Shown piece by piece: positions 38,499 through 57,056 of a DNA stretch of 64,000 nucleotides. Every line of letters begins with the position of its first letter. Position 1 is the stretch's first letter. The position numbers were made by a program, and so were the translations under genes. Below the pieces are notes generated by a model. It was not told the DNA's origin and did not search any database. It was given only the letters and a program-made list of their open reading frames with translations. Origin of the DNA: Stratiformator vulcanicus (GTDB lineage: Bacteria; Planctomycetota; Planctomycetia; Planctomycetales; Planctomycetaceae); contig NZ_CP036268.1 of assembly GCF_007744515.1 (NCBI RefSeq), forward strand, positions 4,583,113 through 4,647,112, in the 5' to 3' direction.

Positions 38499-38520
38499 GC
38501 AGCATTGTTGTAGGTAAGAC

Positions 38521-38991
38521 ATGTCACCCGATTTCCAGTCGGCGCTCGCGACTATCTTGAAAGAATTAACGCGAGGCGCTGAAACCGAGTTCTGCTGGGT
38601 CTTAAATCCCGAAGACGCCGGTTTGATTCCGCTTCTCCGGTCGCTGGACGCCGCACAAGCTCAGTCTCCGCCAGGCCCCGGCCGGAAGTCTGCCGCCGAA
38701 CATGCCCACCATTTGCGCTACAGCATCTCACTTTTGAATCGATGGGCGAGCGGCGAGGAGAACCCGTTTGCGACCGCCGACTGGGCGAGCAGTTGGTCAA
38801 TCGACAAACTCGACGATCGCGGATGGCAGCAATTTGTCGACGATTTTGAACACGAGTTGCAAAATTGGTCCGGCGCATTGAACGAACCCCGTGAATGGGA
38901 TCAGTTCTCACTCCCCGGAGCACTCGCCAGCGCGGCTCATGTCGCCTATCACTTCGGCGCAATCCGGCAGATCGTCTTGAGTACACAATAG
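38521..38991 (+). CDS. DinB-like four-helix protein
   Basis: 156 residues. Histidines in HAHHLRYSISLLNRW and HVAYHFGAIRQ fall at the positions of the metal-binding His in DinB/YfiT-like helical bundles. It may bind metal or act as a thiol-dependent enzyme; the substrate is unknown. It lies 23 bases after the coupled pair. Confidence 0.75.
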   Translation: MSPDFQSALATILKELTRGAETEFCWVLNPEDAGLIPLLRSLDAAQAQSPPGPGRKSAAEHAHHLRYSISLLNRWASGEENPFATADWASSWSIDKLDDRGWQQFVDDFEHELQNWSGALNEPREWDQFSLPGALASAAHVAYHFGAIRQIVLSTQ

Positions 38992-39560
38992 ATATTATTA
39001 ACCCGTGCACTCAGCGCACCGAGCCCACCGTTCGAAGCGACGGGTACGATAAGTCGCGATTCACACCTCGCAGGAGTCGAACCGGCAGCTTTCCCATTCA
39101 TCGTTCGACCGCTTGTTCTTACTTCATTTTTGAGTCCTCATCTTCGAGTACCGACACAACGTAGTAAAAACCGGACGCGTGTCCGCAGCTTTGCCGCGGC
39201 AACATCCGCCGCATGGGCATGACGGCCAAGCGGCCGCGCCCACCGGCGGGGTGAAAAGAGGCGGTGCACCGTGTTCCTCTATCCTTGGGGACTCGGTTGC
39301 GCGGAACCTTGCAACGATCGAATGCAATCGATTCACTTCTGAATTAGACGAACCAACCTCAGAGTTACCGCAGCCGCGCTCAAGACTGTCACGATAGTGC
39401 GCGACAATAGGCAACTCGCGCGCCGGAGCTGGTCCCGGACGTGTTCAACCAATACCGAGATTCGTCATCGAGCACACCCAGCGGACCTGTAATTTTCAGC
39501 AAGCGTCGTCTATCTTGTACACTTACCATAGCGGCGAACGCCATTCTTTCAGGTATCATA
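38992..39560. other. Intergenic region before the GmrSD-like gene
   Basis: 569 bases. The sequence changes from GC-rich to AT-rich near 39480. On the minus strand around 39075-39090 it contains a T-arm-like GCCGGTTCGACTCC, but no complete tRNA folds, so a degraded tRNA at the island edge is only a possibility. No coding frame is convincing. Confidence 0.4.
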
Positions 39561-41243
39561 ATGAATATCGTACACCTCTTAAATCAAATCAAGTCTGAAG
39601 AGATTGTGCTCCCGGCGATTCAACGAGATTTTGTTTGGCCTATAGCAAAGATTGAAATGCTATTTGATTCAGTGATGCGAGGCTACCCCGTCGGCATAGT
39701 ACTCATGTGGGAAACACACAAAGAAATTCAATTTCGTCGATTTGAACGGGAGTTCCGCAAAGGCAATCGCCCGGCCTTTTATGATAACAATGCCCACCGG
39801 AAACTTCGCGTTGTCCTTGACGGACAGCAAAGACTTCAATCTCTCTACCTAGCGCTTTTCGGCCAGTACGACAACGACTTTCTTTATTTCAATGTCCTAA
39901 GCGGAATAGCATCAGACGATTTTGAAGAGCAAAAATATGAGTTTACTTTTGAATCCCCCCAAAGAGTTAAAGAATGGAATAAGAAGGCAACCGAAACCAT
40001 CGCCGACGAAGACACTGTACCCGAATACTATATCAGTGTCCGCGACCTATTTACCTTGTCTGTCAATGACAAATTGGCAGAAAAACGGAGAATAACGTCC
40101 ACACTTTCACTAGATGATGACGACCAAGTGCGATTGGACACAAATCTCGCGAAGTTTGACGAAGTCCTAACCAAAGACCAGAACATTCTCAAGGCCTCAA
40201 TAATTGACGAGAACAAAACAGCTGACAGCCCGGATCGCCAAACAGAATCAGACGTTCTCGAGATATTTGTACGAATCAACAGACAGGGGACACCACTCAG
40301 CAGATCGGACCTCATTTTCAGCATGCTGAAACTTAACTGGAAAGAATCTGCAACAGCACTGCCTGATTTTATCGAAGACGTCAACACCGGCAATTCCTTC
40401 AACATTGAAATCGATTTTGTCATCCGGTGCCTATATGCGGTATCAGACTTAGGAACTAAATTTAACATTGATCTATTGCGAAAGAAGAGCAACATGGAAA
40501 TGCTCAAAGCGAATTTCCCGACGTGCTGCAATGCCATCAGAGCTGCAATCGACAATGTACAACAGCACTGCTCAATATCTAGTTCGAAATTGCTTGGGGG
40601 CGACGAGAACCTTGTTCCTATTGTATACTACCTCTTTCATGTCCCCAATCACGAATTGCCAAACAATCAAGTTGAGGCGTTCCGAAAGTCTTTGTTTCTC
40701 TTGGGGTTTTCGTCTCCGTTCTCCCGGTACGGTGACAGCCGTCTTGCAAAATTTATTCGAGAAGAATTACAACCTAGCCAGGCAGACGGCGATACAACAT
40801 TTCCATTTCAAGAATTGGTATATTGGGTGGATTACTGGGAGAATTTGAGTGAGTGGGACGAACGTCTGGTTCAGCAAAACCCGAGGTTGGCACTACATCT
40901 TGTGCAGGGGCAAAGCGGAAACAAGAGCCATTATAAACTCAACACCCGCGAAATGGACCACATATTCCCGCGTTCAATCCTGTATGAAAAGCACTTCGAC
41001 CAGGCTGAAATCAATCATTTTGCAAACCAATGGATTCTGCCGAAGGGCAAGAATATCAACAAGAGCAACAAGCACCCCAAGAAATACCTCGCAGAAGTCT
41101 CGGACGCAGAACTCAGCCGAGCTTTAATCGACCGCAATCAGCTTGACTACCGCCAATTCCGATCGTTCATAAGAAATCGGGCATCTCGCATCATGAACGC
41201 TCTGGAGACGAAGACAGGCTTATCTCGTAATGATTTTAAGTGA
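39561..41243 (+). CDS. GmrSD/DUF262 plus HNH protein, putative type IV restriction or defence enzyme
   Basis: 560 residues from ATG 39561. The DUF262 domain has QRDFVW (21-26) and VLDGQQRL (85-92), linked to NTP-dependent nicking in GmrSD. The C-terminal DUF1524/HNH part has MDHIFPRS (about 464) followed by HFANQWILPKGKNINKSNK, the beta-beta-alpha metal nuclease pattern. GmrSD-type proteins cleave modified phage DNA. The gene is clearly richer in A+T than its surroundings, suggesting transfer. No methyltransferase or helicase is adjacent, so it would act alone. Confidence 0.85.
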   Translation: MNIVHLLNQIKSEEIVLPAIQRDFVWPIAKIEMLFDSVMRGYPVGIVLMWETHKEIQFRRFEREFRKGNRPAFYDNNAHRKLRVVLDGQQRLQSLYLALFGQYDNDFLYFNVLSGIASDDFEEQKYEFTFESPQRVKEWNKKATETIADEDTVPEYYISVRDLFTLSVNDKLAEKRRITSTLSLDDDDQVRLDTNLAKFDEVLTKDQNILKASIIDENKTADSPDRQTESDVLEIFVRINRQGTPLSRSDLIFSMLKLNWKESATALPDFIEDVNTGNSFNIEIDFVIRCLYAVSDLGTKFNIDLLRKKSNMEMLKANFPTCCNAIRAAIDNVQQHCSISSSKLLGGDENLVPIVYYLFHVPNHELPNNQVEAFRKSLFLLGFSSPFSRYGDSRLAKFIREELQPSQADGDTTFPFQELVYWVDYWENLSEWDERLVQQNPRLALHLVQGQSGNKSHYKLNTREMDHIFPRSILYEKHFDQAEINHFANQWILPKGKNINKSNKHPKKYLAEVSDAELSRALIDRNQLDYRQFRSFIRNRASRIMNALETKTGLSRNDFK

Positions 41244-41487
41244 TCAATTCAAATTGCCTATTCTTCAAGTCATTGAATTGGCATTTGCAGAATGATGCGG
41301 AAGACGCATTCATTTCATAGGGTGCAATAGCACTCGCGACCACTAAGACTTCATGACCAACACATTGCCCCGGAATCCGCACGGCTCACTTTGGAAGTCT
41401 GGTATAATCATGGTCGCGATCACTTTGCTTCTGTGAGATTGTTTCGAGTTCTAGGAAAATATTTTTCGCCAGTCGCGCCGACGGCAT

Positions 41488-42576
41488 TTATTTCCACACC
41501 GCCGTGTTGATCGCGAAATATTTATTCACATGCGGAGGCTTCTTGCGGCTGGCGTACCACATTCGAAACGAGCCATCATTAAGTCGCATCACTGATTGAC
41601 TGGTCGTGTAGTGTGACTCCCATGGGCGCTCCGGGTCGGGACGCAGCACGGGGTTGTTCGGATGCTTGTGCCAAGTAATTCCGTCGGTGCTGGCGGCGAA
41701 GCCGATGGCCGTACGCGGTCCCGGCTTCGTGCGGCTGCCGTACCACATTAAATAGACCGCGGACGAAGGCTCACCACCCGGCGTCGTCTCGACCTGCATT
41801 ACAAACGGATAATTAATCCGCAGGCGCTCCCACTCCTGATCGACTTTTAAGACCTCGCTCGCGGACGTTGACCAATTCAGGCCGTCATCGCTTTGGGCGT
41901 GCCGCACTGCCCACGGCTCCCGACTCACGTCAACGTACCGCATTCTATACCCGTTATCAGTTTTCAAGACGCTCGGAGCCCGAGCCTCCGAAAGCAGCGG
42001 CTTGGACGGCTTCGACCATCGAATGCCGTCGCTGCTCGACGTTTCATGAATCTCGTAAGGACTCTCCGGATCAGTCAGATCACGGGCGCTGAACCACATC
42101 CGCAATCGACCTTGATCTCGTACGGCAGTACCGTCAGAACTGCGTAGGAGACTCGGCGTGACGACCGATCGCCGGTTGTCAGCGAAGCCGAAGATCGGGC
42201 TTTGCGGATGCCGATTGAAATCTCGGCCGTCCCGACTTGTCGCCAAGCCGAGCCGAAAGACGCGCTCGTTGACATCACCGCGAGAGCCCGAGTAGTAGAG
42301 CAGAAATCGCCCATCTTTCCGGATCACCGACGGCGCAAAGATATGCCGGTCGTCAAAATGACCGGCCTCGCCCAGAGTCAGAACCGCTTTTTCGACGTCG
42401 CGTTTCCAGACCTGAGGGGCAAGCCACGGCTTCACTGCTGCTGGAATCTCTTCGGCACTTTGGGCTTCACAATGACGAATTGGGTCTGCAAGCAGAATCG
42501 CTGCAGCGATCAGACAACGATAATTAAGGTCCGTTACGACGCACGAACGAGTTCGTTCCATATCGAATGATATCAT
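41488..42576 (-). CDS. Secreted glycosidase-like five-bladed propeller protein
   Basis: 362 residues from ATG 42576, or ATG 42561. A signal-peptide-like segment (CLIAAAILLADP) is followed by repeated blades containing LGLATSRDGRDF, HETSSSDGIRW, HAQSDDGLNW and GFAASTDGITWHKHP, the pattern of GH43/GH32-like or DUF glycan-binding propellers. Catalytic carboxylates were not assigned. It lies 30 bases after the next upstream gene on the same strand and may be co-transcribed with it. Confidence 0.75.
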   Translation of the reverse strand: MISFDMERTRSCVVTDLNYRCLIAAAILLADPIRHCEAQSAEEIPAAVKPWLAPQVWKRDVEKAVLTLGEAGHFDDRHIFAPSVIRKDGRFLLYYSGSRGDVNERVFRLGLATSRDGRDFNRHPQSPIFGFADNRRSVVTPSLLRSSDGTAVRDQGRLRMWFSARDLTDPESPYEIHETSSSDGIRWSKPSKPLLSEARAPSVLKTDNGYRMRYVDVSREPWAVRHAQSDDGLNWSTSASEVLKVDQEWERLRINYPFVMQVETTPGGEPSSAVYLMWYGSRTKPGPRTAIGFAASTDGITWHKHPNNPVLRPDPERPWESHYTTSQSVMRLNDGSFRMWYASRKKPPHVNKYFAINTAVWK

Positions 42577-42606
42577 TGGAGTGAAACGCTATCTATTTCT
42601 TCAGGA

Positions 42607-44346
42607 CTATTCGGGCCATTCCGAACCATCTCTTAAACGGATTGTGTATTCTGGCGGAAACATGTCTTCTCCGATGTCCAGATGGGGCAGCTTGTATTCG
42701 GCCCCCAGCTTTAAGTCGGCTTGGTGGCGCTTCAGAAATTGCTGCCATAAGGGCTTAATGCGGCGTGCCTCTTTGCGAAGGTCAATATTACTGCTGCGGC
42801 CGCCTCCTCCGGCATTCGGGAAGAGTGGCTTCAGGGCGTCAAGGGATTCAAACATCATTCCAGGTTCGTCGATTCGGTCGACAAGTATCTCCAGCCGCTC
42901 GTAGCGGTTAAGAACCTCTCGCGCGGCTCCATCGGCCGCTGAGAAATGAAAGCTTTGCCGGGCGGTCCGCAATTGCTTTCGAACGGGGTCGCGAAATTCC
43001 GTCAGTCGATCGCGACTGACAATGTGAAGTGCTTCGATCACGCTGCCCAGATGCGGCGACGCGAACACTTCGATCAAGTCCGGCCGTAGAGCCGCGGGAA
43101 TAGGCTGCGGCAGGTTTTCCAGCATCGTGCGTCGGACATGCAGTATTTCGTGCCGAATCAAAAGGCGGCAAGTCTGTTCCCAGCCTTCCGGCTCGAATTG
43201 CGAATCCTGCCCGAATTTTATTGCGAACAACATCGCCTCACCCGCTGACTTCGGGTCGGCCGGGCATTTCGCACCACGTTCGAAGAGACGACGCGCGGCG
43301 TGCTCCAGGCTGTGGCAGGCACCCGGACGACCGGGATAGTCGCGATACGTATTGCCTTCCTTAACGGTCGATTGGCTTCGTCCGACTTCGAGGTCAAGTG
43401 CCCTTTGCACCTCGATAAGGTGGTCCGGTTCGCCGACTGCTGCAATCATTTTCGCCCCGGCCTCAAGATCATCTGAGTTTTCGCTATTAAGGTAGACGAC
43501 GCCGAGCGCGGCGACATCTGCGGCGAGACTTTTCTGCCAGGAATCGTCGACGAGCCATCGCCCCGTCGGCGGCTTGTTGTCTCGAGACGCGGGTAATCGA
43601 TTCAGAAGGTGCCGGCGAGCTTGAGTGCGAATCACCTTTTCTTGGGAACCCGCCAATTGAATTAATAAACGGGTCGCGTCGGGAGTCGCGATGCTCGCTA
43701 CGCCACTTATCGCCCGCTTGTTCCCCGCCGTGGCTGGTTCTGTCAGTGGACCGAGATATGTGGCGTTCCGAATCACCGAGAAGTCGGGATGTGGCTGCGT
43801 TTCCTTATTGTTTGTTCGATTCGCGTCTGAATCCGACTTAAGCCATCGCTCGACGAGGTGCCGAGCCTGCCCTGCCGAAGGCTGCTTAAGTACGAGTTCA
43901 ATCTTCGCCTCTGGAAACTTCCTCTCAGCCGACTCCTTCCATCCGCAGTCATGCCGGATAGTAATGACATAGCGTCCCGGCTCGTTAAATCTCAGAAATC
44001 GCAGCAGCGGGATGGATTCGACATAAGGATCATCCGGCACGACCGTATGCCAAGTCAAAAAACCGCCACGGCGTATAATTATTCTCAGCGGATCTTGAAC
44101 CTCATTCCCCTGAGCATCGACTGCCGAAACTTTAAAACGTTCTGAGCGCCCGGTGCCGCGATAATCTCCACCGAACCATGCGACGAATGGGTCACCGCCG
44201 GTATTGATCACCCGATAATGAACGAGGATATTCTCGCCCAGAAAGTACTCCTGCCGATCGCTCGCCAATTGAACCTCGGCATGATCGGGCACGGTCGGCC
44301 TCGCAGCTAATTGGAGCAGCAACAGCGGGATCAAGGCAGCGTGCAT
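42607..44346 (-). CDS. Secreted protein with helical-repeat region, unknown
   Basis: 579 residues. It starts with a short signal-like N-terminus (LIPLLLLQLAARP). An immunoglobulin-like beta region follows (about 22-140), then a long helical, HEAT-like section. There is no recognised catalytic motif. The gene seems to form an operon with the downstream propeller gene. Confidence 0.65.
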   Translation of the reverse strand: MHAALIPLLLLQLAARPTVPDHAEVQLASDRQEYFLGENILVHYRVINTGGDPFVAWFGGDYRGTGRSERFKVSAVDAQGNEVQDPLRIIIRRGGFLTWHTVVPDDPYVESIPLLRFLRFNEPGRYVITIRHDCGWKESAERKFPEAKIELVLKQPSAGQARHLVERWLKSDSDANRTNNKETQPHPDFSVIRNATYLGPLTEPATAGNKRAISGVASIATPDATRLLIQLAGSQEKVIRTQARRHLLNRLPASRDNKPPTGRWLVDDSWQKSLAADVAALGVVYLNSENSDDLEAGAKMIAAVGEPDHLIEVQRALDLEVGRSQSTVKEGNTYRDYPGRPGACHSLEHAARRLFERGAKCPADPKSAGEAMLFAIKFGQDSQFEPEGWEQTCRLLIRHEILHVRRTMLENLPQPIPAALRPDLIEVFASPHLGSVIEALHIVSRDRLTEFRDPVRKQLRTARQSFHFSAADGAAREVLNRYERLEILVDRIDEPGMMFESLDALKPLFPNAGGGGRSSNIDLRKEARRIKPLWQQFLKRHQADLKLGAEYKLPHLDIGEDMFPPEYTIRLRDGSEWPE

Positions 44347-44432: not shown

Positions 44433-45185
44433 TTAAACGTAATGAGAACTCACCTCATCAATGGAACCTGCAGTCGACATTGAGGCGACGAAACGGCGAT
44501 CCTGCGAAGTGCAAAGGTTTCTGAAGAGCAGCAATTGAATCCATGAGGCCGCAGCCATCAGCGCAAACCTCAACACTTCATTGATACCCTGAACATAGAA
44601 AAAGACTGCAATGCTGAAGCGATCGCTTTCCCGCAGATAACCGGCCGTCACCATCCACCCTATACTGAGAATCTCCGTCAAACTGAATAGCCACCATAGA
44701 TGGACGATTGAAGGAACGGGCGTGTCTCTCCAATTCGACCCCGGTTTCGAATTCGCGATGCGGCCAATTTCTCTCAGAATGCGGTATGGCAGAAAATACT
44801 TGATGACCGGAACGAGAAAGTAGACCACCAGCATCGTCGGCGAGGCGAACAAAGGCCCTTCGCCGAAGGCCTCAGTATTCTTCGCAAGGCGATAAAATAG
44901 CATTAAAGAGGAGATCGCCATCGTGCCGACAACCGGCATGATGAAACAGATCAACAATGCCTCCGTGAGAGTCGACCAGGGCGAACCGTCGTTAGGCAGA
45001 ATCAGTAGATCGACGCCCGGCGCGAACAACTCGATGGCCTGACAGACCAGCAAGAAGATCAACACGATGATCGATCCCGACGTGGAATACTCCACGACTG
45101 TCAGCAGCATCCCGCCGCTACGATAGTCGGCGAGCGCTTCGCTGCATCCGACGTCCGAATTGGTGGGAGCGGCCTCAACCGGCAT
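44433..45185 (-). CDS. DUF4328-like membrane protein
   Basis: 250 residues with about five to six hydrophobic helices. [19 protein letters not shown] resembles the DUF4328 loop before the last helices. It overlaps the end of sucD by 11 bases on the same strand, so it may be co-transcribed with sucD, but a functional link is unlikely to follow from that alone. Confidence 0.6.
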
Positions 45186-46053
45186 TACCCATCGCCCGCT
45201 TCACCGCTGCGCCCATGTCGGCCGGGCTGTCGGCGACTTCGACGCCGGCGTCGCGGAGGGCGGCGATTTTTTCGTCGGCCGTGCCCTGCCCGCCGGAGAT
45301 GATTGCGCCGGCGTGGCCCATGCGTTTGCCGGGAGGGGCCGTCTTGCCGGCGATGAAGGCGGCGCAGGGCTTCGACACATTGGCCTTAATATATTGCGCG
45401 GCTTCGATCTCCGCGGTGCCGCCGATTTCGCCGATCAGCAGGATCGATTCGGTCTTGGGGTCGTTCTCGAACTCTTCGAGCAGGTCGATGAACGACGTGC
45501 CGACGATCGGGTCGCCGCCGATGCCGACGGCCGTCGATTGACCGAGGCCGACATTCCCAAGTTGCCACGCGGCTTCATAAGTCAGCGTGCCACTCTTTGA
45601 GATCAGACCGACCGTGCCTGGCGAATGAATGTAACCCGGCATGATGCCGATCTTGGCGATACCGGGCGTGATCACGCCCGGGCAGTTCGGCCCGACAAGC
45701 TGGCTCGTCGTGTGCGAGACGTAATCGTACGCCTTCACCATATCGAGCACCGGAATGCCTTCGGTGATCGCCACGATCAGATCGATCCCGGCATCGGCCG
45801 CTTCCATAATCGCATCGGCCGCAAACGGAGGCGGGACGAAGATCAGGCTGCAGTTGGCTCCGGTCTCATCGCAGGCTTCGTCCACGGTGTCGAAGACTTT
45901 GAAGCCGTCGACCTCCGTGCCGCCCTTGCCCGGCGTCACGCCGCCAACAAGCGGCGTACCGTATTCCCGGCACTGCTGGCTGTGAAACAGCCCGTGCTTA
46001 CCGGTGATGCCCTGAGTAATGACTTTGGTATTTTCGTCAACGAGGATGGCCAT
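45175..46053 (-). CDS. sucD: Succinyl-CoA synthetase alpha subunit
   Basis: 292 residues. The CoA-binding Rossmann domain starts [25 protein letters not shown], then [12 protein letters not shown], and GHAGAII with the phosphorylated His, are all present. With SucC it converts succinyl-CoA to succinate with NTP formation in the TCA cycle. In most bacteria sucC is immediately upstream. Here a DUF4058 gene, a sucC remnant and two more genes separate the pair. Confidence 0.97.
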
Positions 46054-46112
46054 GGCGTGCTATCGTCTACAGTGTTAGTCGGAAAGCAATGTTGGTCAGG
46101 AAGTAGTGGTCG

Positions 46113-46829
46113 TCAGGAAGCGGCAGGTTGGTCGAACCGGATACGGAGTTCCCGGCAGGTCTCTCGGTAGGTGGCGTCGAGGTCGACCGGCATCGTGGGG
46201 CCGACCCGCAACGGCAGAGGCATCGTCGGCAACGGCTCGCCGATCCGCAAGCAACTTTCCCAAACCTGAACCGCGTGCTCTTCACCCCTCTCAATGGGCT
46301 GATACGAGCAAGCGTAGAGCTGGTCGCACTGTGCCGTCGAAGAGGGATCAAGCCGTTCGGCAAGTTCGCGGTGCAGACTGTGCTTCGACTCGGTCACCAC
46401 ATCGACCACCATCAAGCCCGCACCGTTGGACAGCAGCGCCTCACATTTCGATAGAAACGCGGTTCGCCCGGCTTTCGACCTCTTATTGCTGGGGCTGACG
46501 AGTTCGATCGCACCGACAATCTGCGGATTGTAGCCGATGGCTTCGATCCAGATTTCGACCGAATCGGTCAGCACTGGTGCGGGCAGCGTGAGCGTCGGCT
46601 GCGGCGCCGTGTAAGCGCTCGACACTTCCTCTCGAAATTCCGGCCCCTCCTCTGCGTCCTCCTGCACGCCGACATCAACTTCGATGCCGTACCGCAGGTG
46701 CGGACTGGCGATCCAACCGTCCGGCAGTTCATCATTCAAGGCGAAGGCAATTTTGACGGCCCAAGCCGAGTGGAAGCTATTCCACTGCATACGCCCGGCG
46801 ACGGGGCCGCTGAAATGATCGAGTAGCAT
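46113..46829 (-). CDS. DUF4058-family protein, divergent
   Basis: 238 residues, 59 bases upstream of sucD on the same strand. It contains AIELVSPSNKRSKAGR, then LPTMPLPLRVG and a terminal RIRFD, in DUF4058 order, but lacks the MPSPFPGM start of the copy at 16084. Its neighbour upstream is a sucC remnant, so this gene may have entered the sucCD operon. Confidence 0.72.
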   Translation of the reverse strand: MLLDHFSGPVAGRMQWNSFHSAWAVKIAFALNDELPDGWIASPHLRYGIEVDVGVQEDAEEGPEFREEVSSAYTAPQPTLTLPAPVLTDSVEIWIEAIGYNPQIVGAIELVSPSNKRSKAGRTAFLSKCEALLSNGAGLMVVDVVTESKHSLHRELAERLDPSSTAQCDQLYACSYQPIERGEEHAVQVWESCLRIGEPLPTMPLPLRVGPTMPVDLDATYRETCRELRIRFDQPAAS

Positions 46830-46863
46830 GGCGTCCTCCTGAAACAGGTCTGGCCTGTCATTC

Positions 46864-46918
46864 TACCCCAACGCCGCCACCACCATCTTCGCCGCGTCGG
46901 TCAGCGTGGTCCAATCTG
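46864..46918 (-). pseudogene. 3' remnant of a sucC copy
   Basis: On the minus strand this reads LTDAAKMVVAALG followed by a stop, nearly identical to the [13 protein letters not shown] end of intact sucC at 47946. It is not attached to any open frame. Together with the 5' remnant at 51347-51480, it suggests an older sucC split or replaced by inserted DNA. Confidence 0.75.
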
Positions 46919-46928
46919 TAGACATCAT

Positions 46929-47450
46929 TCACTGACTTTGGAATTCGAGTTCCCATTGGCCGTTCTCCGCTTTTTCGCGAAGGAAAGCGAGTGCCCCTTG
47001 AGCGTCGCCCTCGTCGGCGCAAAAAACGTCGCTCCCGAACGGCAAGACAGGCAACGATTCTTTAAGCTCGGCAAGGGCTTTTTCGGTCCTCATGTCATAA
47101 ATTCCTTTTGCGGTCGCATGGACGCGGTATGGCATCAATCCCATACGAATTGCTTCCGAAGGCGTCCAAGAACCGAGATGGACGATATCGGCGAGCTCGG
47201 CGACGTCATCCACGGAGCCTTCGAACGACTCCGACGTAATCTTTGCTCGAACCGCATCATCAATATCTTCCCACTCCGACCAAATAACGTCGATTGAGTG
47301 CCCACCTTCCGGGTCGATCCGTTCCAGGATGATTGGCTCACCGCCCTGACTCGGCTTCTTCAATTCGTCCAACAGCCTTTCCCGCAAGCGTTCGCTGTAT
47401 TTCAACTGCTCGGCAGATTCGTCGACCATCTGGATGACTTTTCTGGCCAT
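46929..47450 (-). CDS. Hypothetical acidic protein between the sucC copies
   Basis: 173 residues, soluble, rich in Glu and Asp. The N-terminal helix carries many charged residues. The region IDPEGGHSIDVIWSEWEDIDD suggests a small alpha/beta domain. No family is recognised. It lies inside the interval between the sucC remnants. Confidence 0.55.
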   Translation of the reverse strand: MARKVIQMVDESAEQLKYSERLRERLLDELKKPSQGGEPIILERIDPEGGHSIDVIWSEWEDIDDAVRAKITSESFEGSVDDVAELADIVHLGSWTPSEAIRMGLMPYRVHATAKGIYDMRTEKALAELKESLPVLPFGSDVFCADEGDAQGALAFLREKAENGQWELEFQSQ

Positions 47451-47478
47451 ATCAACTCTCCACCTGGTTCAAACAGTT

Positions 47479-47949
47479 TCAAAGGATTGCATGATTTTCG
47501 TTGAACCAAGCCGCAGCGAGCCGTGCGTTATGGATCTCGAACGTCTTGACATAAATCCGTTTGTATCGCATTTCGACAACGCGTAAGCCCTGAAGCCTGG
47601 CCGAATGATTTGTAAGAGCCGCCCTGTCATGGGGCAATAAGGGTGCGTTTTGCCGCTTCCGCTCTGAACTTAATTCCGCAGCCAATTGGCCGATATCGTG
47701 AAGATTATTCACTCCAAGACGTTTACGGAGGTCCTTTGGTTTGCTGAATCGAGTGGTGGCCGGGACGCTCTTGACACGCAAAATCGCCACTTTCAGCCAC
47801 ATTTCCACCGCGTAGCCGTACATCATGATCGCGCCAGCCCGGCGGTTATCTGCGGCAAGAATCTCGCCATCAAGAAATCGAGCCCGGGCAGCGAATTCAA
47901 ACGCCGCGCTCGTATCATAATTCTTTGACCGCGCGGCGAGGGGGTTCAT
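47479..47949 (-). CDS. Hypothetical HEPN-like helical protein
   Basis: 156 residues. [15 protein letters not shown] resembles the helix found in HEPN-type proteins that pair with nucleotidyltransferases, but no Rx4-6H motif was identified. It overlaps the sucC stop by four bases, so its translation may be coupled to sucC. It lies inside the interval between the sucC remnants. Confidence 0.55.
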
Positions 47950-49154
47950 TCTTGCGGGCTCGACTGCGAGTCCCCCAACGCCGCCACCACTTTCTTCGCC
48001 GCATCCGTCAAATCCGTCGCCGATGTGATCGCCTTGCCGCTGTCGGCGAGCATTTTGCGGGCTTCTTCGACCTTATTGCCTTCGAGCCGGACCACGAGTG
48101 GGACGCTGAAGCCGATCTTGTCGTAAGCTTCGAGCAGCGCCGTCGCGATCGTATCGCAGCGCATAATGCCGCCGAAGATATTCACCAGCACCGCCTTCAC
48201 GTTGTCGTCGGAAAGGATGATCGAGAACGCTTCGGTCACCTGTTCGACGTTCGCGCCGCCGCCGACGTCGAGGAAGTTGGCCGGCTCGCCGCCGTGCAGC
48301 TTGATGAGGTCCATCGTGCTCATCGCCAGCCCCGCCCCGTTGACGAGGCAGCCGATGTTGCCTTCGAGCTTCACATAGCTCAGCCCGGCGTCGGCGGCGC
48401 GGACCTCCGAGTCTTCCTCTTCGCTCAGGTCACGGAGCTCGGTCACGTTCTTGTGACGGAACAGGGCGTTGTCGTCGAACGTGACTTTGGCATCGAGCGG
48501 CACCAGTTGGCCGTCGCCGGTCACCACGAGCGGGTTGACCTCGGCCATGCTGCAGTCGCTGTCGAGGAAGAACCGCACGAACTGCGGCAGGAACTTCTGA
48601 GCCGCCCGAATCGCCGGGCCTTCCAGCCCGAGCTGAAACGCCAGATTCGTCGCTTGAAAGGTGTGCAGTCCGTATCCCGCGTCGACCTTCTCCTGCAGGA
48701 TCTTCTCCGGCGTCTTCGCCGCGACTTCTTCGATGTCCATCCCCCCTTCGGAGGACATGATGATCACCGGCGACTTCGTCTCCCGGTCGACCAGCACCGC
48801 GAGGTAGAGCTCCCGCGCGATATCGAGGCCCTGCTCGACCAGCAAGGTGTTGACCTGCTTGCCTTCCTCGCCGGTCTGAATCGTGACGAGCGTGTTACCC
48901 AGCATCCGCTCGGCGTTCGCTTTCGCCTCATCGGCACTCTTCACCAACGTGACGCCGGGCTGCTCGGGTTCCTCCTTAAATCGGCCCTTACCGCGCCCCC
49001 CCGCGTGGATTTGCGATTTGACGACGGCGAGCGGTCCGCCCAAATCGTCAAACGCTTGCGCGGCTTCGTCGGCCGACTTGGCGACGACGTGACGGGGAAC
49101 GCTGACTCCGGCCTCGGCGAGAAGCCGCTTGGCCTGAAATTCGTGGATTTTCAT
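47946..49154 (-). CDS. sucC: Succinyl-CoA synthetase beta subunit
   Basis: 402 residues from ATG 49154 ([16 protein letters not shown]), with an ATP-grasp fold in [21 protein letters not shown] and VNIFGGIM. This is the nucleotide-binding partner of SucD. Its start and its 55 upstream bases are duplicated at 51480-51535. It is separated from sucD by three genes, which is unusual. Confidence 0.96.
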
Positions 49155-49362
49155 TGCTGGCAGGTCGCTAGTTGGGCGGTTCGATCGAGTGCAGGTCGGA
49201 TGGTACCGCCCCGCTCTGGCCGATTCCACCGGGAACGCTGTCAGACCGAAGCGGGAGGATCACCGACGGACGGAACTCTTTCGGACCGGTCGCACGATTA
49301 CGGAAAAGTATTCGTGGGCCGCACTCGATCAGCACGGCGGCGTCAATCGGTCACTTACAGCG

Positions 49363-50955
49363 CTACTTCGGAAATTCGACGAACTCATTGCCGTCCGGCG
49401 AGATGGTCCAACGAACGAGCGTTAGCACATTTGACTGCGGGCCCGCGTAAGGCCCGTCGGTGTCGGTCAGAAACTTCCACCGAACGTATTCGATTTCTAA
49501 GGATTCAAGGGGCGGTTCCCCCTCCGTCGTGGCTCGGGCGTTGTACTTTGCGATAAATCGCTGAAAGAGATTCGCGAGATCTTCCCGGTACGCCGGGTCT
49601 TCGAAAGCCCGGAAGAGCACCACTCGATGTCGGGACCCGCGCAAAATCGGAAATTCGATGCCCGGATGCACACGTACCGTTTGTCCGTCCCGTGTCGTCG
49701 CGTTTAAACGGAAATACCAAGCATTCCATGCCCTGTCGATTTTGGAATACATCTTCCAGGAGGTCATCGGGTAATGTTCGATTCCGTAGACATTTCCGAT
49801 GAAAAAGTAGACGACGACCAACGCGAATGCGATCCTAAGAACTAAAGCTCTTTCATTGTTCGGCCCGCCGCTTCTGGCAGTCTCGTTCCTCATCGATTCA
49901 TTTTCGCCGACGCGATCTCGATCGGTATTGAGAGACATCGCTTTTCGATCTTGATCGGCTCGGTCAACCGGCGAGTCGCCGTCGTCTTCGGAACGAACGG
50001 GCCCTCGGCCGATTCCTCGCCGTAACGCCGCCATGCTGATAAAGAACAGCGGCACGAACAACAGGTCTTGAAAAACCAGTCTTTGGGCGATCCAGATGCC
50101 GACATGCAGTCCCAGGGCCGCCGTCGGCAGAATCCAGCGAGCAATTCGAGAGTAAAGTACGAGTGGGAAAAACAGTTCGACGAGCAGGCCGCCAAGCCCG
50201 ATGAAGCCGAACAGGGCAGCGGGTGCTCCAAAAATTAGCGATTCGATCCCCCAATCGAATACCATAAAGTCATCCAGTTGATCACTGAAAATGATGAACT
50301 GCATGTTGCTCGGCCACCACCAGAAAAGTCCTGTGTTCCGGATTTTGCTGATTGCGGCCCCGAGATACATCATTGCAAACGGCGTCCAAATCAGCATGCG
50401 AGCCGCGCCGTATTCACTTGTCTGCAAAAAAGGGTTCAGCCGGTCACCGTGACTTAATCGGCGCATTAATGCGTCGACTGACCAGACACGCGAGCACGGA
50501 GTCAAAATGAGTAGCGGGAGCAGTGCGAGGACAGAAAAGAATTCGTGGTAACAGAAGTTATATTCTCTCCCGATTCCCATAAAGACGAAGTAACTTAAGT
50601 ACGCGCAGGCCAAGCTCCAACGTGTCAAAAAGCCGATCGCGCCCAAGATCAGGAATAGCCCGGTCGTCCAACGTATTCCGAAGAGTATCGTCGGGTCTCG
50701 GAATGCTTCGGCCAGACCGAAGGAATGCTTCATCTCGGTGAAAAGGCCGAGCGGCTTAATTAAGCCGGCGGGCATGTCCGCCGCCGCCTCCGGTTTCGTC
50801 CAAAAGAACGCCAGCAATCCGATGCTGCAAACCGTGATCCTTAAGAAGGCGAGATCGGCCGCGCAACCCGGCACGCGCCAACCACGTCGCCATTGCCATT
50901 CTCGCAGACCGATTAGAATCAACGGCCCCAAAACGACCAGCAAGAAGTCTGCCAT
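49363..50955 (-). CDS. HTTM-domain membrane protein
   Basis: 530 residues with about eight to ten hydrophobic segments. The pattern of N-terminal helices, FCYHEFFSVLALLPLLILT and LGAAISKIRNTG resembles the HTTM (vitamin K-dependent gamma-carboxylase-like) domain. An approximately 60-residue polar linker near 330 precedes a last helix and a soluble tail. The expected substrate is unknown. It lies inside the sucC remnant interval. Confidence 0.75.
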   Translation of the reverse strand: MADFLLVVLGPLILIGLREWQWRRGWRVPGCAADLAFLRITVCSIGLLAFFWTKPEAAADMPAGLIKPLGLFTEMKHSFGLAEAFRDPTILFGIRWTTGLFLILGAIGFLTRWSLACAYLSYFVFMGIGREYNFCYHEFFSVLALLPLLILTPCSRVWSVDALMRRLSHGDRLNPFLQTSEYGAARMLIWTPFAMMYLGAAISKIRNTGLFWWWPSNMQFIIFSDQLDDFMVFDWGIESLIFGAPAALFGFIGLGGLLVELFFPLVLYSRIARWILPTAALGLHVGIWIAQRLVFQDLLFVPLFFISMAALRRGIGRGPVRSEDDGDSPVDRADQDRKAMSLNTDRDRVGENESMRNETARSGGPNNERALVLRIAFALVVVYFFIGNVYGIEHYPMTSWKMYSKIDRAWNAWYFRLNATTRDGQTVRVHPGIEFPILRGSRHRVVLFRAFEDPAYREDLANLFQRFIAKYNARATTEGEPPLESLEIEYVRWKFLTDTDGPYAGPQSNVLTLVRWTISPDGNEFVEFPK

Positions 50956-51079
50956 TGATTCGAGCCCGTCTCGGTGCTGTCAACGCCCGCAAAGTGCCGT
51001 GTTGTCAGCTGTGGAATGTGTCTGGAGTGATTCTTAAAGGTGGTTTACGAAACCGGATGTGAGGAGGGCGAGACACGGC

Positions 51080-51132
51080 GTTGCCCAACGTTGCCCAAAT
51101 TGTTCGTCAGGTTGTTCGTCTTGTTCGTCAGG
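51080..51132. repeat. Short tandem repeats GTTGCCCAAC and TTGTTCGTC
   Basis: GTTGCCCAA is repeated twice at 51080-51098, followed by three TTGTTCGTC units at 51100, 51112 and 51121, with AGG after the first and third. No coding role is supported. Confidence 0.6.
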
Positions 51133-51346
51133 CGTTTTTTTGTTGATCAGCTTAGCAATTCAGAGCATCGAAACGAGGAGACGCTCTGTGAAAATCTCGT
51201 GAAACCCCCGTCGGCGGCGAGCCGGGGCTGCGTTCGGCAATAATGGGAAACCAAATTGAAATTCGCAGTCGGGTCTTTCCCTTCAATTGTTCTGTGTCAT
51301 TCTTCAGGTGAGCGTACCGTCGAATCGTCGAGCAAACGCGGGAGCG

Positions 51347-51480
51347 AGACGGCGAGCGGTCCGCTCAGTTGGTCGAAGGCCTGAGCGGCCTCGTCCGGGC
51401 TCTTCGCAACGACATGACGGGGAACGCTCACCCCCGGCCTCGGCGAGAAGCCGCTTGGCCTGAAATTCGTGAATTTTCAT
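51347..51480 (-). pseudogene. 5' remnant of a sucC copy
   Basis: On the minus strand the start [16 protein letters not shown] equals intact sucC. One extra base then shifts the frame, but the corrected frame continues [20 protein letters not shown], clearly sucC-derived. The homology extends through the preceding 55 bases (51481-51535), which differ from the sucC upstream region by one base. No complete sucC can be made here. Confidence 0.85.
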
Positions 51481-51772
51481 TGTTGGCAGGTCGCTAGTTG
51501 GGCGGTTCGATCGAGTGCAGGTCGGATGGTACCGCCCGACGCCGGGCGATTCCACCGGGCACGGCGTGAGGCTGCCACGCAAGGTGAGTGGCCGTCGAAC
51601 TGTCGCGTCATGCGCCGCACTGACTCGCGGGCGAGCAGCAGCCGATCGGACGTCGAAGCGGGAGAGCGACCTTCATTCGAAAACAGCGTCGCGGGCCGAT
51701 CTCTACCGGCTTGGCTCGGCGATTGCACATCGGGCGATCGATCAGACCGCGAAAGCCAACAAAGGATACTCC

Positions 51773-52648
51773 ATGGCCGCAGACCCCCGAGAACTGTACC
51801 CCAAGCCTCCGTTCAAGCAGATCGAGGGTCAGGATACCCCCGGCGTCGAACGGAAAATGGAGCCGGAGCCGATCCACGGCGAATCGAGTTACGTCGGCCA
51901 CGGCCGCTTGGAGGGAATGGCGGCTCTGATTACCGGGGCGGACAGTGGAATCGGCCGGGCCGTCGCGATCGCATTCGCACGGGAGGGAGCCGATATCGTC
52001 TGCTCCTATCTCTCCGAGGACAAAGACGCTGAAAAGACAGCCGCTGCGGTGCGAGAGGCCGGTCGCAAATGCCTCACCATTGCGGGCGACATCAAGGATC
52101 AGGCCCACTGTCAGAAATTGGTCGACCGCACGCTCGAGGAATTCGACAAGCTCGACGTGCTCGTCAACAATGCCGCGACGCAGGTCACGCACGAGGACAT
52201 CGGAGACTTCACAGCGGAGGAGTGGGAAGACACGTTCCGCACGAACATTCACGCGATGTTCTACCTCTGCAAAGCCGCGCTGCCGAGGATGAATCCGGGT
52301 GGTTCGATCATCAACACGACATCGATTCAAAGCTATGACCCCAGCGCGATCCTGCTGCCCTACGCCCCGACCAAGGCGGCAATCACCAACTTCACGAAGG
52401 CCCTCTGCCCGCAGGCGATGCGGCGCGGCGTCCGCGTCAATGGCGTTGCCCCCGGCCCCGTTTGGACCCCGCTGATCCCCGCGACGATGCCCAAAGACAA
52501 GGTCGAGAATTTCGGTGCCAATACTGTATTCGAGCGACCCGCGCAGCCGGTCGAACTGGCTCCGCTCTATGTCTTTCTCGCCTCCGCCGAAGCGAGCTAC
52601 GTCACTGGCGAAATCTACGGCGCGACGGGCGGTCGATCACCCGTCTAA
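51773..52648 (+). CDS. SDR-family oxidoreductase, YghA/YdaD-like
   Basis: 291 residues from ATG 51773. The N-terminal extension PGVERKMEPEPIHG before the Rossmann fold is typical of the YghA/YdaD stress-linked SDR subfamily. GADSGIGRA, NNAATQ, TTSIQSY and YAPTK (the catalytic Tyr and Lys) are intact, as is the terminal GEIYGATGG. An NAD(P)-dependent alcohol/carbonyl substrate is expected. It is a normal SDR, in contrast to the degenerate one at 33929. Confidence 0.87.
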   Translation: MAADPRELYPKPPFKQIEGQDTPGVERKMEPEPIHGESSYVGHGRLEGMAALITGADSGIGRAVAIAFAREGADIVCSYLSEDKDAEKTAAAVREAGRKCLTIAGDIKDQAHCQKLVDRTLEEFDKLDVLVNNAATQVTHEDIGDFTAEEWEDTFRTNIHAMFYLCKAALPRMNPGGSIINTTSIQSYDPSAILLPYAPTKAAITNFTKALCPQAMRRGVRVNGVAPGPVWTPLIPATMPKDKVENFGANTVFERPAQPVELAPLYVFLASAEASYVTGEIYGATGGRSPV

Positions 52649-53222: not shown

Positions 53223-54554
53223 ATGGACTCGCGAACAATCACGATCACGTCTTCCACCATCGCCCACGGAAGACTTAATATCCGACCATGCGGCAAGACT
53301 TTCTTTCCCGCCGATTCATTTGGGAAACCTTCGCGTAGTGCTGGAGTCGGGACTTCCATTCGTATACGTGCGACCGGACTCCCGGACATTATTGAAACCG
53401 ATATTCCGACAGACGGCGCTGGCCGCCCTCGCTGGTTTTTCCGCGCTCGACGATGGGTCAAGGATTTTGCGTCCATAAATCGCCTTGGTGCAGGAGCGAA
53501 GGCGAATCTCATTCGAGTAGCGGAACGTGATTACTGCCTTACGCCAGATTCTCGCCCGATTCGTTTTGTCGACTTGTTTGCCGGAATCGGAGGCATGCGC
53601 CTCGGATTTGAGGCTGTCGGAGCAGAGTGCGTATTTTCGTCCGAATGGGATAAGCATAGCCAGAAGACTTACCAAGCAAATTTTGAGGATCTGCCTGCCG
53701 GCGATATTCGGACGATTGTCGCGGAATCCATTCCCGACCATGAAATTCTGACCGCAGGCTTTCCGTGTCAACCTTTTTCCATCGCCGGGGTGAGCAAGAA
53801 AAACGCGCTCGGTCAGGCACACGGGTTTGAGTGCCGAACCCAAGGCACACTTTTTTTCGATGTTGCGAGAATTATCTCGGCGAAGAAACCAGCCGCATTC
53901 GTGCTTGAGAACGTCAAAAATCTGCAAAGTCACGATAAAGGACGCACATTTAAAGTCATCCTTGAGACACTAACTGAGGATTTGGGATATTATATCCACC
54001 ACCGCGTAATTGATGCGAAGAATGTCCTTCCGCAACATCGCGAGAGGCTTATTATTGTCGGGACCCGCAAGCCCCTCGACTTCCATTTCCCAACCGTTGA
54101 CGAACTCTCTCAATATCGACAAGCCGAGGTGCTCGGCGACATATTGGACGCTGATGTTCCCGACAAATATACGTTAACAGACCATTTGTGGGCGTATTTG
54201 CAGAACTATGCTGCGAAGCATCGGGCCAAGGGAAATGGCTTCGGATTTGGGCTATGTCGGCCAAGCGATGTGACTCGGACGCTGAGCGCCCGCTACTATA
54301 AGGACGGCAGCGAAATTCTAGTCAATCAGCCGAAACGCAATCCGAGGCGCCTCACACCTCGCGAATGTGCGCGGCTGATGGGTTTCCCTGACAGTTTTAC
54401 GATTCCAGTAAGCGACACCCAAGCCTACCGGCAGTTTGGAAATTCAATCGCCGTCCCTATTGTGAAAAGTATCGCCGATAGGTTGACCCTTGCATTAAGG
54501 ACAGGCGAAACCTCAGATACTATTACGCGTCCCGCAAGCTTTCAATTTTCGTAG
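53223..54554 (+). CDS. DNA (cytosine-5) methyltransferase with extra N-terminal domain
   Basis: 443 residues. GGAGGTG four bases before ATG 53223 fixes the start. The N-terminal 105 residues form an unusual extra domain containing WFFRARRWVKDF; it resembles the B3-like fold of restriction-enzyme specificity domains, but this is by eye. The catalytic part is complete: FVDLFAGIGG (115-124), FPCQPF with Cys182, VLENVKN, QHRERLIIVG and RQFGNSIAVP. It likely methylates the site cut by the adjacent EcoRII-like nuclease. The pairing with Vsr suggests a CCWGG-type target. Confidence 0.93.
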   Translation: MDSRTITITSSTIAHGRLNIRPCGKTFFPADSFGKPSRSAGVGTSIRIRATGLPDIIETDIPTDGAGRPRWFFRARRWVKDFASINRLGAGAKANLIRVAERDYCLTPDSRPIRFVDLFAGIGGMRLGFEAVGAECVFSSEWDKHSQKTYQANFEDLPAGDIRTIVAESIPDHEILTAGFPCQPFSIAGVSKKNALGQAHGFECRTQGTLFFDVARIISAKKPAAFVLENVKNLQSHDKGRTFKVILETLTEDLGYYIHHRVIDAKNVLPQHRERLIIVGTRKPLDFHFPTVDELSQYRQAEVLGDILDADVPDKYTLTDHLWAYLQNYAAKHRAKGNGFGFGLCRPSDVTRTLSARYYKDGSEILVNQPKRNPRRLTPRECARLMGFPDSFTIPVSDTQAYRQFGNSIAVPIVKSIADRLTLALRTGETSDTITRPASFQFS

Positions 54555-54571
54555 AATGAAGTTCGCGAAGA

Positions 54572-55342
54572 ATGGCAAATCCCATAAACGATCTTGCGGA
54601 CGCCCAGTTGCTGGACCTTCTCAGGAATGAAATGAGGCGTAACCTGCCGAGCGGGATCGAATTCGCGAAGATGGCGGTCGAGCATGAACTCGGACAGCAC
54701 TCAGACGATCCGGACTGGATCAAAGCAAATTTCAGCAACTTAGTCGAAAAAATACAGACTACCGCCTATCGCCATTATCTCGAATTTGAAAAGCCCGCTG
54801 CATTGGCGGCCATGAAATCGGCTCTTCCAGCCGAATGCGAAAACAGGTTCATCGCCGTATTGGAAGAGCATTTCTTTACCATCGATAGATTCTTCTTAGG
54901 ACTGACACAGGGGCGTCGACCACGTGCGGGCGGTGCGTTCGAGCAACTTATCTCAATCTTATTTTCAAAACTGGACTACCCATACACTTCACAACCGATA
55001 ATCAATGGCCAGCCTGACTTTTTAATCCCGAGTGAAACACATTATCGAAATAATCCGGTGGATTGCATCGTATTTACTGTGAAGAGAACGCTACGGGAGC
55101 GTTGGCGACAGATAGTCACTGAAGGCATGCGCGGATATCAATTCTTTCTCGCCACGATCGACGAGAAAATCGCCGCGCGAGATTTGGACGCTATTCGCGA
55201 TCACCGTATTCATCTCGTGCTCCCCGAACGGATTAGATCGGAACGGTATGGTGATCGCCCCAATGCAATCTCATTCGAAACCTTTTTTCGAGACCATCTT
55301 GATCCGGCAATGGATCGGTGGCGAAACAATTCTGTGATCTGA
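54572..55342 (+). CDS. EcoRII-C-like restriction endonuclease
   Basis: 256 residues. The EcoRII catalytic-domain order is clear: RAGGAFE (with Glu124), QPDFLIPS (Asp149), a short gap and VKRTLRERWRQ (Lys171), a PD-(D/E)xK nuclease. The first 110 residues are helical and differ from EcoRII-N, so the enzyme may not need the second-site allosteric domain. It lies 17 bases after the methyltransferase. A CCWGG or CCNGG site is inferred from the family; the recognition sequence has not been determined here. Confidence 0.85.
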   Translation: MANPINDLADAQLLDLLRNEMRRNLPSGIEFAKMAVEHELGQHSDDPDWIKANFSNLVEKIQTTAYRHYLEFEKPAALAAMKSALPAECENRFIAVLEEHFFTIDRFFLGLTQGRRPRAGGAFEQLISILFSKLDYPYTSQPIINGQPDFLIPSETHYRNNPVDCIVFTVKRTLRERWRQIVTEGMRGYQFFLATIDEKIAARDLDAIRDHRIHLVLPERIRSERYGDRPNAISFETFFRDHLDPAMDRWRNNSVI

Positions 55343-55353
55343 AATTTACTCGG

Positions 55354-55764
55354 ATGGATGTGCTGACAATTGAACAAAGACGGCGGAACATGCGTGCCGT
55401 CAAATCTCGCGACACCCGGCCGGAACTCAGAATCAGAAGAACGCTTCATCAACTAGGATTCCGCTACCGCGTTAATAAAAAAGGCCTCCCAGGCTCGCCG
55501 GACATGGTGTTTCCCGGTCGTCGCAAAGTGATCTTCGTCCACGGCTGCTTCTGGCACCGGCATGATTGCCCGCGGGGCCATGCCACCCCGGCAACGCGGC
55601 CTGAATTTTGGGCTGAAAAGTTCGCCAGGAATATCGCGCGAGACAAAAGAAATATTCGCGAATTACGCAAGCTCGGTTGGAGTGTAATGACGATCTGGGA
55701 GTGTCAGACACTCAGTGCAAACCTTCCGACGACAATCAAACGTACAATTCGTTTTCTTGGGTGA
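55354..55764 (+). CDS. vsr: Very short patch repair endonuclease
   Basis: 136 residues from ATG 55354. SPDMVF (Asp50) and FVHGCFWHRHDC (61-72) give the metal and zinc sites of Vsr, and TIWECQ lies near the end. It nicks 5' to T:G mismatches made by deamination of 5-methylcytosine and thereby protects sites methylated by Dcm-type enzymes. It overlaps the last codons of the nuclease gene in the longer open frame; the chosen start avoids this. It converges with purA. Confidence 0.94.
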   Translation: MDVLTIEQRRRNMRAVKSRDTRPELRIRRTLHQLGFRYRVNKKGLPGSPDMVFPGRRKVIFVHGCFWHRHDCPRGHATPATRPEFWAEKFARNIARDKRNIRELRKLGWSVMTIWECQTLSANLPTTIKRTIRFLG

Positions 55765-55772
55765 GTTCCAGC

Positions 55773-57056
55773 CTACTCAACAACAATCGTCTGCTCGCGA
55801 TCCGGGCCGACAGACACCCATTTCACCGGGCGGCCGCACAGTTCCGCCACGGTGTCGATGTAGCTGCGGGCGTTGGCGGGGAGGTCGTTTATGATCCGGG
55901 CGGCGGTGGTGTCTTCCGACCAGCCGGGGAGTGTGCGGTAGATCGGTTTGGCGATCGCGAGGTCGTCAGCATGGCTGGGGAAATCGGTGGTGCGTTCGCC
56001 GTTGATTTCATAGGCCTCGCAGATCTTTAATTTCTCGAAGCCGTCGAGGACATCGAGCAGGGCCAGCGCGATATTATCAACGCCGCTCAAGCGCGCGCTG
56101 TAACCGGTGGCGACGGCGTCGAACCAGCCGCAACGGCGGGGACGGCCCGTGACGGTGCCGTATTCGCGACCGCGTTCGCGGATGCGATTGCCGGTGTCAT
56201 CGTTTAATTCCGTCACGCAGGGACCGCCGCCGACGCGGGTGGTATAGGCCTTAGCGACGCCGATCATCTCCGTGATATAACGCTCCGGCACGCCGCTGCC
56301 GGGATGCACGCCGCAGCCGGAGCTATTCGAGCTTGTCACGTAGGGGAAGGTGCCGTGGTCGATGTCGAGTAACGACCCCTGTGCCCCCTCGAACAGAATC
56401 TTTTGCTCGTCGGCAACTGCGCGATGCAGGAAGGCCGTCGTATCGGTGATATAGGATTCCAATTTCGCAATGTGACCGCGATACTCTTCGAATATTTCAT
56501 CGACGTCGAACTGCGGCGCTTCGGGATCGAGGGCCCTGAGCAGTAGATTCTTAACCGGCACAATTTCAGCAAGCCGGGCTTTAAACTTATCGGGCCGCAG
56601 GATTTCCCCCAGCCGAATCGCATGCGCTCGGCCCGCTTTGTCGCGGTAGCAGGTGCCGATGCCGCGCATCGTGGTCCCGATCGCCGAGTCGCCGCGATTC
56701 TTCTCGAGGATCGCCTCTTCGGCCATGTGATACGGGAAGATGACGTGGGCGCGGTCGCTGATTCGCAAGTTGACGTCCTGCGGCCCACCCGCGGCCTTCA
56801 TCGACTCGAGTTCGGCGAGCAAAGCCTTGGGATTAATCACGACGCCCGTCGCGATCACGGAGTCGACGTCCGGATTGAGAATCCCCGCCGGCAAGAGCGA
56901 GAGCTTGAACGTCTTGCCGTCACAAACGACCGTGTGTCCCGCATTGTTCCCGCCGAGGTATCGCACCACGATCTCGTGGCGCGAGGTGAGCAGGTCGACG
57001 AATTTTCCTTTGGCTTCATCGCCCCATTGCAGGCCGATGACCGATGTCCCAGGCAC
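55773..57056 (-). CDS. purA: Adenylosuccinate synthetase
   Basis: About 427 residues. GTG 57056 is chosen because GAGG lies nine bases upstream, giving [18 protein letters not shown]; the longer frame is not coding-like. The P-loop has GDEAKGK in place of the common [15 protein letters not shown], then [11 protein letters not shown] and [22 protein letters not shown] are typical. It makes adenylosuccinate from IMP, aspartate and GTP. It converges with vsr. Confidence 0.95.

Follow-up and report, generated by a model that had tools for sequence, protein, structure and literature searches.

How does a gene of the tricarboxylic acid (TCA) cycle come to stand intact between the two ends of another copy of itself? 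The question is raised by sucC, the succinate--CoA ligase beta subunit gene, in the window analysed here, a stretch of 64,000 nucleotides (nt) from Stratiformator vulcanicus Pan189 (CP036268; 5,228,745 bp in a single contig), a slow-growing marine member of the Planctomycetaceae whose genome is reported closed and whose closest relative by 16S is named as Calycomorphotria hydatis (PMC10509075). The start of a second sucC is followed by a gene for an HTTM-type membrane protein, a complete sucC, two small genes (hypB and hypA) and the end of the second sucC, all on one strand and in nested order. This structure is real and not a product of chance. The explanation that we favour, and to which we give an even chance, is an in situ displacement in which one sucC-bearing segment was joined into another sucC of the same lineage. 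The elements concerned, in the direction of transcription, are the following.

51481-51570, minus strand: leader of the head fragment, about 90 nt
51348-51480, minus strand: head fragment of the second sucC, codons 1-44
50956-51347, minus strand: spacer from the head fragment to the HTTM gene, GC 52.8%, single copy in the genome
49363-50955, minus strand: HTTM-type membrane protein, 530 amino acids (aa), GC 54.4%
49155-49244, minus strand: leader of the intact sucC, with homology to that of the head fragment
49108-49211, minus strand: near-identity tract, leader and first 15 codons, 104 nt with 2 mismatches to its partner at 51433-51537
47946-49154, minus strand: intact sucC, 402 aa
47479-47949, minus strand: hypB, 156 aa, GC 53.1%
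46929-47450, minus strand: hypA, 173 aa, GC 54.0%, second gene of the two-gene module
46863-46919, minus strand: tail fragment of the second sucC, 15 residues listed and its own stop

A first-pass annotation of this DNA had placed the end and the start of a sucC on either side of an intact copy, and the DNA and protein matches both bear this out. The region 51348-51570 matches 49023-49244 over 137 nt at 92% and 87 nt at 78%, with the register one base off. In blastn searches of the 16-kb locus against itself, the head match covers 190 nt (88%, E=6e-66) with the sucC region as query and 133 nt (84%, E=4e-36) with the coding sequence alone. The head fragment keeps its start codon, one extra base after codon 15 breaks its frame, and no similarity to sucC was found in it past codon 44. 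At the other end, 46866-46903 matches 47973-48010 over 38 nt (89%, E=6e-9 in the 16-kb locus) and reads into its own TAG at 46863-46865, the tail being traceable to about 46919. As a protein it scores 59 against the end of sucC, the best score elsewhere in the 64-kb window, over stretches free of overlap with sucC or the tail, being 32. Both fragments are where the annotation had put them, except that the homology of the head, leader included, reaches about 51570 instead of 51535. The three non-sucC genes announced between them are also present, two hypotheticals and an HTTM gene whose name is indirect. The head fragment reads as a dead gene start and the tail as a dead gene end. Similarity to sucC ceases after codon 44 and just past hypA.

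A structure made of near-repeats might be suspected of being an assembly or sequencing artefact. This we hold to be extremely improbable, as the repeats are short (<230 nt) and differ at many positions, a judgement made from the assembly, and as the genome is reported closed (PMC10509075).

The remnants are confined to this locus in our sample of relatives (G and L numbers denote genomes and loci). No second same-strand piece of sucC was found at E<=1e-4 in any of 60 other family loci from 49 genomes; relatives sharing the same two fragments, which the annotation had named as the observation that would tell against a split gene, are absent from this set. Relaxing the same-strand search of sucC against its own locus to E<=0.01 over 61 family loci adds to the fragments described here only a 22-nt match in L121 (E=4e-4) and a 24-nt match in L174 (E=0.003). 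A protein search for the sucC tail downstream of sucC in 35 other loci, of which 32 are valid tests (L122 and L167 read past the stop and L174 ends after sucC), gives at best 40 (L181) against 59 here. A wider search including the flanks and both strands, in 99 loci, a good number of which belong to other phyla, returns matches in 27 other loci at a cut-off of E<=0.01. The best of them is in L032, where a short repeat (2349-2459) in the flank downstream of sucC recurs within the locus, inverted (E=1e-16) as well as direct (E=1.6e-8); L122 has an inverted 38-nt match (E=3e-6).

Have the two copies been separate genes for long? Over codons 16-44 the remnant and the intact sucC share 78.2% identity. 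The mismatches number 5 at the first codon position, 1 at the second and 13 at the third, so that 13 of the 29 third positions differ; 12 of the changed codons are synonymous and 3 non-synonymous. Because of this excess of synonymous changes and this third-position bias, the parent of the fragment was functional over most of the period since the split. Against 68 sucC sequences from relatives, among which some genomes appear twice, the best identities are 71.3% for the intact gene and 69.0% for the remnant, both below their mutual identity. These comparisons show that the two copies separated long ago, within this lineage, while both were functional. The last 57 nt of the leader and the first 47 coding nt behave otherwise, with just 2 differences in 104 nt; when the 30 mismatches are shuffled over the 220 columns of the alignment, such a stretch appears in 0 of 20000 trials. 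Preferential conservation of the leader and the first codons is not what a dead copy should show, so that the natural reading of this stretch would be a tract of recombination or gene conversion.

The intact sucC is the only full-length copy found in the genome. It is recognised by two succinate--CoA ligase beta models (TIGR01016, 494.2 bits for a cut-off of 375.55; NF001913, 540.2 bits for a cut-off of 370), carries a C-terminal extension of 8 residues, DSQSSPQE, without counterpart in the relatives compared, and its stop overlaps the start of hypB by 4 nt (ATGA). Its GC content is 62.9%, that of sucD 62.8%. In trees of 50 rows, G020 is the sister of this genome for sucC as well as for sucD (support 99/96 and 99/93), and the identities of the two genes to relatives are correlated (r=0.62 over 58 loci, in which some genomes are represented twice). 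A distant foreign origin of the intact sucC is rejected on these grounds: the foreign phylogenetic position expected of a xenologous displacement is not seen, and a congeneric partner is still compatible with the trees. Since it has the same sister as sucD and a sucD-like GC content, the intact sucC may be the native gene of this genome. Both genes group with G020 and the topology is the same either way, so the resident copy is not thereby designated. Of the claim that an older sucC was split by a segment bearing a new one, the split is supported by the nested order; either copy may be the older. The fit to a single split gene follows from the nested order, the common strand, and a head that begins at the start codon and a tail that ends at the stop, before the next gene.

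We propose that the displacement would have proceeded as follows. Two sucC loci that were akin yet different, both from the same lineage, would meet in one chromosome, one framed as purA ... sucC - DUF4058 - sucD and the other flanked by cargo as HTTM - sucC - hypB - hypA. The cargo-flanked segment would join into the other sucC, with the loss of approximately codons 45 to 380 and the retention of the head and the tail. Homology between the two genes would most likely position the incoming DNA, and the joins at its two ends, one following codon 44 and the other lying between hypA and the tail, would be illegitimate, as in homology-facilitated illegitimate recombination. A short exchange at that time, or a later gene conversion, would make the leader and the first 15 codons nearly identical, and the cell would keep one working sucC. 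Two features expected of such a displacement are found at this locus: remnants of the displaced gene beside the new one (head and tail), and an anchor common to incoming and resident DNA (the homologous leader and codons 1-44, including the 104-nt tract). A single event, this recombination route and a congeneric partner would together account for the arrangement. The low GC content of the cargo, the single sucC match of the single-contig relatives, the distance from the tail to DUF4058 and the conserved ends of the frame, all given below, likewise speak for it.

Several observations weigh against this proposal. No donor or congeneric genome with the order HTTM - sucC - hypB - hypA was found, the present genome being the sole one of its genus among those listed. 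In other genomes, no listed HTTM homologue is found closer than 90 kb to a sucC of its own contig, a check limited by draft contigs and by four genomes (G013, G070, G093, G100) without a listed place for sucC. The gene hypB is present in 2 of 170 genomes of the family and 2 of 392 of the phylum, this genome being included in both counts. The tail is short, and its last 18 sense nt are identical to the intact gene, exceeding the 78% of the head. At the joins, where the first-pass annotation advised a search for direct repeats, no target-site duplication is recognised by eye. The spacing from sucC to DUF4058 varies among relatives (101 nt in G090, and other genes between the two in G023, G024, G108 and G132), and G020 has no DUF4058 gene between sucC and sucD, so that a sucC - DUF4058 ancestry is not demonstrable here. 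Finally, second sucC sequences are not absent from relatives, 8 of the 159 positive genomes having two matches.

These eight genomes bear on another explanation, an old tandem duplication or amplification of sucC in the lineage, the outer copies of which would have been mostly lost and into which HTTM and hypB-hypA would have entered later. In four of them (G002, G011, G056, G093) the two matches agree with a single gene interrupted by contig ends or by N. In G090 and G092, two differing sucC sequences, 92 and 82% identical, lie at contig ends of draft bins (G090 at L190 and L196; G092 at L203 6430-6804 and L204 5615-6796), the second of G092, cut by its contig end, standing about 0.9 kb before sucD. 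On small contigs, G085 (L195) and G142 (L198) each carry a further, distantly related sucC, whose identity to the query is 56 and 50%. Such second sequences give some support to coexisting copies, and none of them shows the nested structure. A duplication would agree with the two differing sequences of G090 and G092, with the doubling of both leader and gene head, and with the sister relation of remnant and intact sucC relative to all sampled relatives. We nevertheless judge it improbable: the order head, intact gene, tail requires three copies or a nested copy, the third-position differences require long coexistence, the 21 single-contig genomes (this one included) have one sucC match each at E<=1e-10, and the second sequence of G090 and G092 may possibly reflect a strain mixture.

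Is a filled junction between sucC and sucD unusual in itself? Both genes can be placed in 140 of the 170 family genomes searched. They lie within 400 bp of each other in 117, are separated by 489-1895 bp in 14, the widest of which is this genome, and are far apart or on other contigs in 9 (3 on one contig, G004, G043 and G044, and 6 on different contigs, G092 among them). In the single-contig cases G004 and G043 the two genes are 2.6 Mb and 1.4 Mb apart, the adjacency being lost in at least two genera of the family. The junction is filled or broken in 23 of the 140 placed genomes, this one included, the 6 that rest on different contigs of draft genomes making some of these uncertain. The remodelling had been called unusual. 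The filled or broken junction recurs, and it is the pair of remnants that is seen here alone.

The cargo of the other filled gaps, described for 12 of 13 (G130 is left out), is varied. After sucC and before DUF4058 or sucD we find a nucleotidyltransferase-HepT pair in G108 (L165) and a PIN-domain gene with a small partner in G023 (L115); in G094 (L168) a nucleotidyltransferase with an unassigned partner directly follows sucC. The genes of these three gaps are of toxin-antitoxin type. Other gaps hold an IS110 transposase on the opposite strand (G001), a DUF559 gene (G077) or a 23S-rRNA-intervening-sequence protein (G089). DUF4058 is gap cargo in G012, G014, G023, G024, G108, G132 and G153, and open reading frames without a family above the cut-off occur in G012, G024, G091 and G132. 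These counts cover the sucC-sucD gap only, and we make no claim of a hotspot.

The recurrence of varied cargo in 13 other genomes of the 140 makes an insertion downstream of sucC plausible by itself, and with it a history of two independent events: HTTM, anchored in the head of sucC, would have duplicated this head, and hypB-hypA, likewise anchored in sucC, would have pushed the old tail back, the intact sucC being either native or a hidden hybrid. Its sucD-like GC content and phylogeny agree with such a history, and the shifting back of an old 3' end has been proposed for Vibrio cholerae arrays (PMC5361080). Each event must, however, leave a fragment of the same gene, and none of the 13 other loci with a filled gap shows a second same-strand piece of sucC (E<=1e-4); two events are the main rival to our reading, a possible course that we consider rather unlikely.

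What are the genes that came with, or into, the nested structure? HTTM, hypA and hypB have a GC content of 53-54%, against 61-63% for sucC, sucD and DUF4058. The HTTM-type protein of the window has no Pfam match up to E=5, and its closer homologues (L133-L135) have no match to PF05090 HTTM; a more distant homologue (E=4e-9 to the window protein) carries this domain at 8.6e-22. The spacer 50956-51347 was considered as a repeat or insertion sequence, which its single copy in the genome rules out. In G153, hypB followed by hypA recurs on a contig other than that of sucC, the identities being 31% and 28% (single comparisons, E=6e-16 and 3e-7), and because the pair recurs there, hypB-hypA is a genuine two-gene module. 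The hypB protein weakly matches the candidate-defence model PDC-M28A (E=2.4e-6), and from its company and size the module might be guessed to be of a defence or toxin-antitoxin type. No match to hypA or hypB was found at E<=0.001 in 72,556 plasmid records, and a search of the PDB with hypB gave nothing at E<=0.001. Folded alone, hypB and hypA give poor models (mean predicted local distance difference test, pLDDT, of 52 and 40).

The position of this module recalls a site-specific integrative element inserted at the 3' end of sucC, the tail being the displaced gene end and the head unrelated to that event. Indeed, 18 identical nt are found at both 3' ends, next to the stop or the junction, with hypB-hypA between them. 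Neither hypA nor hypB has an integrase match, as a site-specific element at a gene 3' end would call for, the codons of the tail that precede the identical stretch are divergent and would be superfluous in an attachment-site copy, and the head is left unexplained; such an element is thus very improbable.

The displacement would have taken place within a frame that is conserved at its ends. Its remaining members are these.

55779-57050, minus strand: purA, conserved flank upstream of sucC in G020
46113-46829, minus strand: DUF4058 protein
45175-46053, minus strand: sucD, succinate--CoA ligase alpha subunit
37319-37780, plus strand: ndk, flanking sucD on its downstream side, conserved in G020 and G007

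In G020 the order carA, ndk, sucD, sucC, purA is compact, with 109 nt between sucC and sucD. The window has the same end genes, ndk and purA, and every gap is filled. From ndk to sucD there are a GmrSD/HEC-05-type gene and others; from sucD to sucC, DUF4058, hypA and hypB; and from sucC to purA, HTTM, a short-chain dehydrogenase and an EcoRII-C-type restriction gene accompanied by cytosine methylase and Vsr. Read along the minus strand, purA is followed by this restriction-modification set, the dehydrogenase (on the opposite strand), the head fragment, the low-GC spacer, HTTM, the intact sucC, hypB, hypA, the tail fragment, DUF4058 and sucD. The DUF4058 protein has 8 of its 10 best family matches adjoining sucC or sucD, and the stop of the tail lies 33 nt ahead of its gene, where a complete sucC lies 19-39 nt ahead in G045, G153 and G014. 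The statement that the split left sucC and sucD separated holds in that cargo stands between them; the split is not the sole cause, DUF4058 also lying between, as in several relatives.

As side observations, the DUF4058 subgroup beside sucC or sucD is scattered (G108, G132, G014, G023, G024, G153, G090 and G045), and G020 is without it. The restriction-modification set, from the dehydrogenase to purA (53223-55764), comprises a cytosine methylase, an EcoRII-C-type restriction gene and a Vsr endonuclease. The region of about 6.5 kb from ndk to DUF4328-sucD (37831-44346), not seen in G020, holds a DinB-superfamily gene (38521-38991) and, at 39441-41243, the GmrSD/HEC-05-type gene, a candidate for defence. 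A consensus scan of 46000-52000 gave no sigma-70-type promoter, and 5 terminator-like sites against 7.5 in shuffles.

How does the proposed displacement compare with known systems? In in situ (xenologous) displacement, an operon gene is swapped for a homologue and the operon position is kept; unlike in such cases, the two ends of the old gene survive here, the partner would be of the same lineage and there is no foreign phylogenetic signal. Accessory-gene islands are rich in defence and toxin-antitoxin genes, a feature shared by the other gaps of this frame with their EcoRII-C-type/methylase/Vsr set and GmrSD/HEC-05-type gene. Unlike in these islands, no integrase is recognised among the genes searched. 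Homology-facilitated illegitimate recombination is described as a route in naturally competent species and in conjugation (PMC3240628). It has also been proposed, in Vibrio cholerae gene arrays, for segments which, anchored by a common sequence, displace a resident gene and leave its 3' end shifted back downstream (PMC5361080). The present locus resembles these arrays in this respect and differs from them in keeping both old ends and in affecting a housekeeping gene of metabolism; moreover, the old and the new copy have the same job and the mechanism is inferred. A literature search gave no described sucC-sucD insertion among the matches listed. As a displacement, the event is of a known general kind, unusually well preserved, in an unusual gene.

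An essential single-copy gene that is displaced would ordinarily be expected to vanish entirely. At this locus its two ends are preserved together with an exchange tract, which makes the steps readable. Could the ndk-sucD-sucC-purA frame be a standing landing zone in the Planctomycetaceae, its essential genes serving as homology for the entry of defence or toxin-antitoxin modules, and this locus a frozen intermediate? We offer this as a speculative and unlikely extension of our model. If it were true, the cargo would travel with pieces of sucC or with a whole copy, and a carrier sucC together with the ends of the resident gene would here still be visible. A TCA-cycle gene pair that is usually adjacent tolerates and repeatedly receives accessory genes, and the sucC-sucD gap is a test case for the entry of small modules into core operons.

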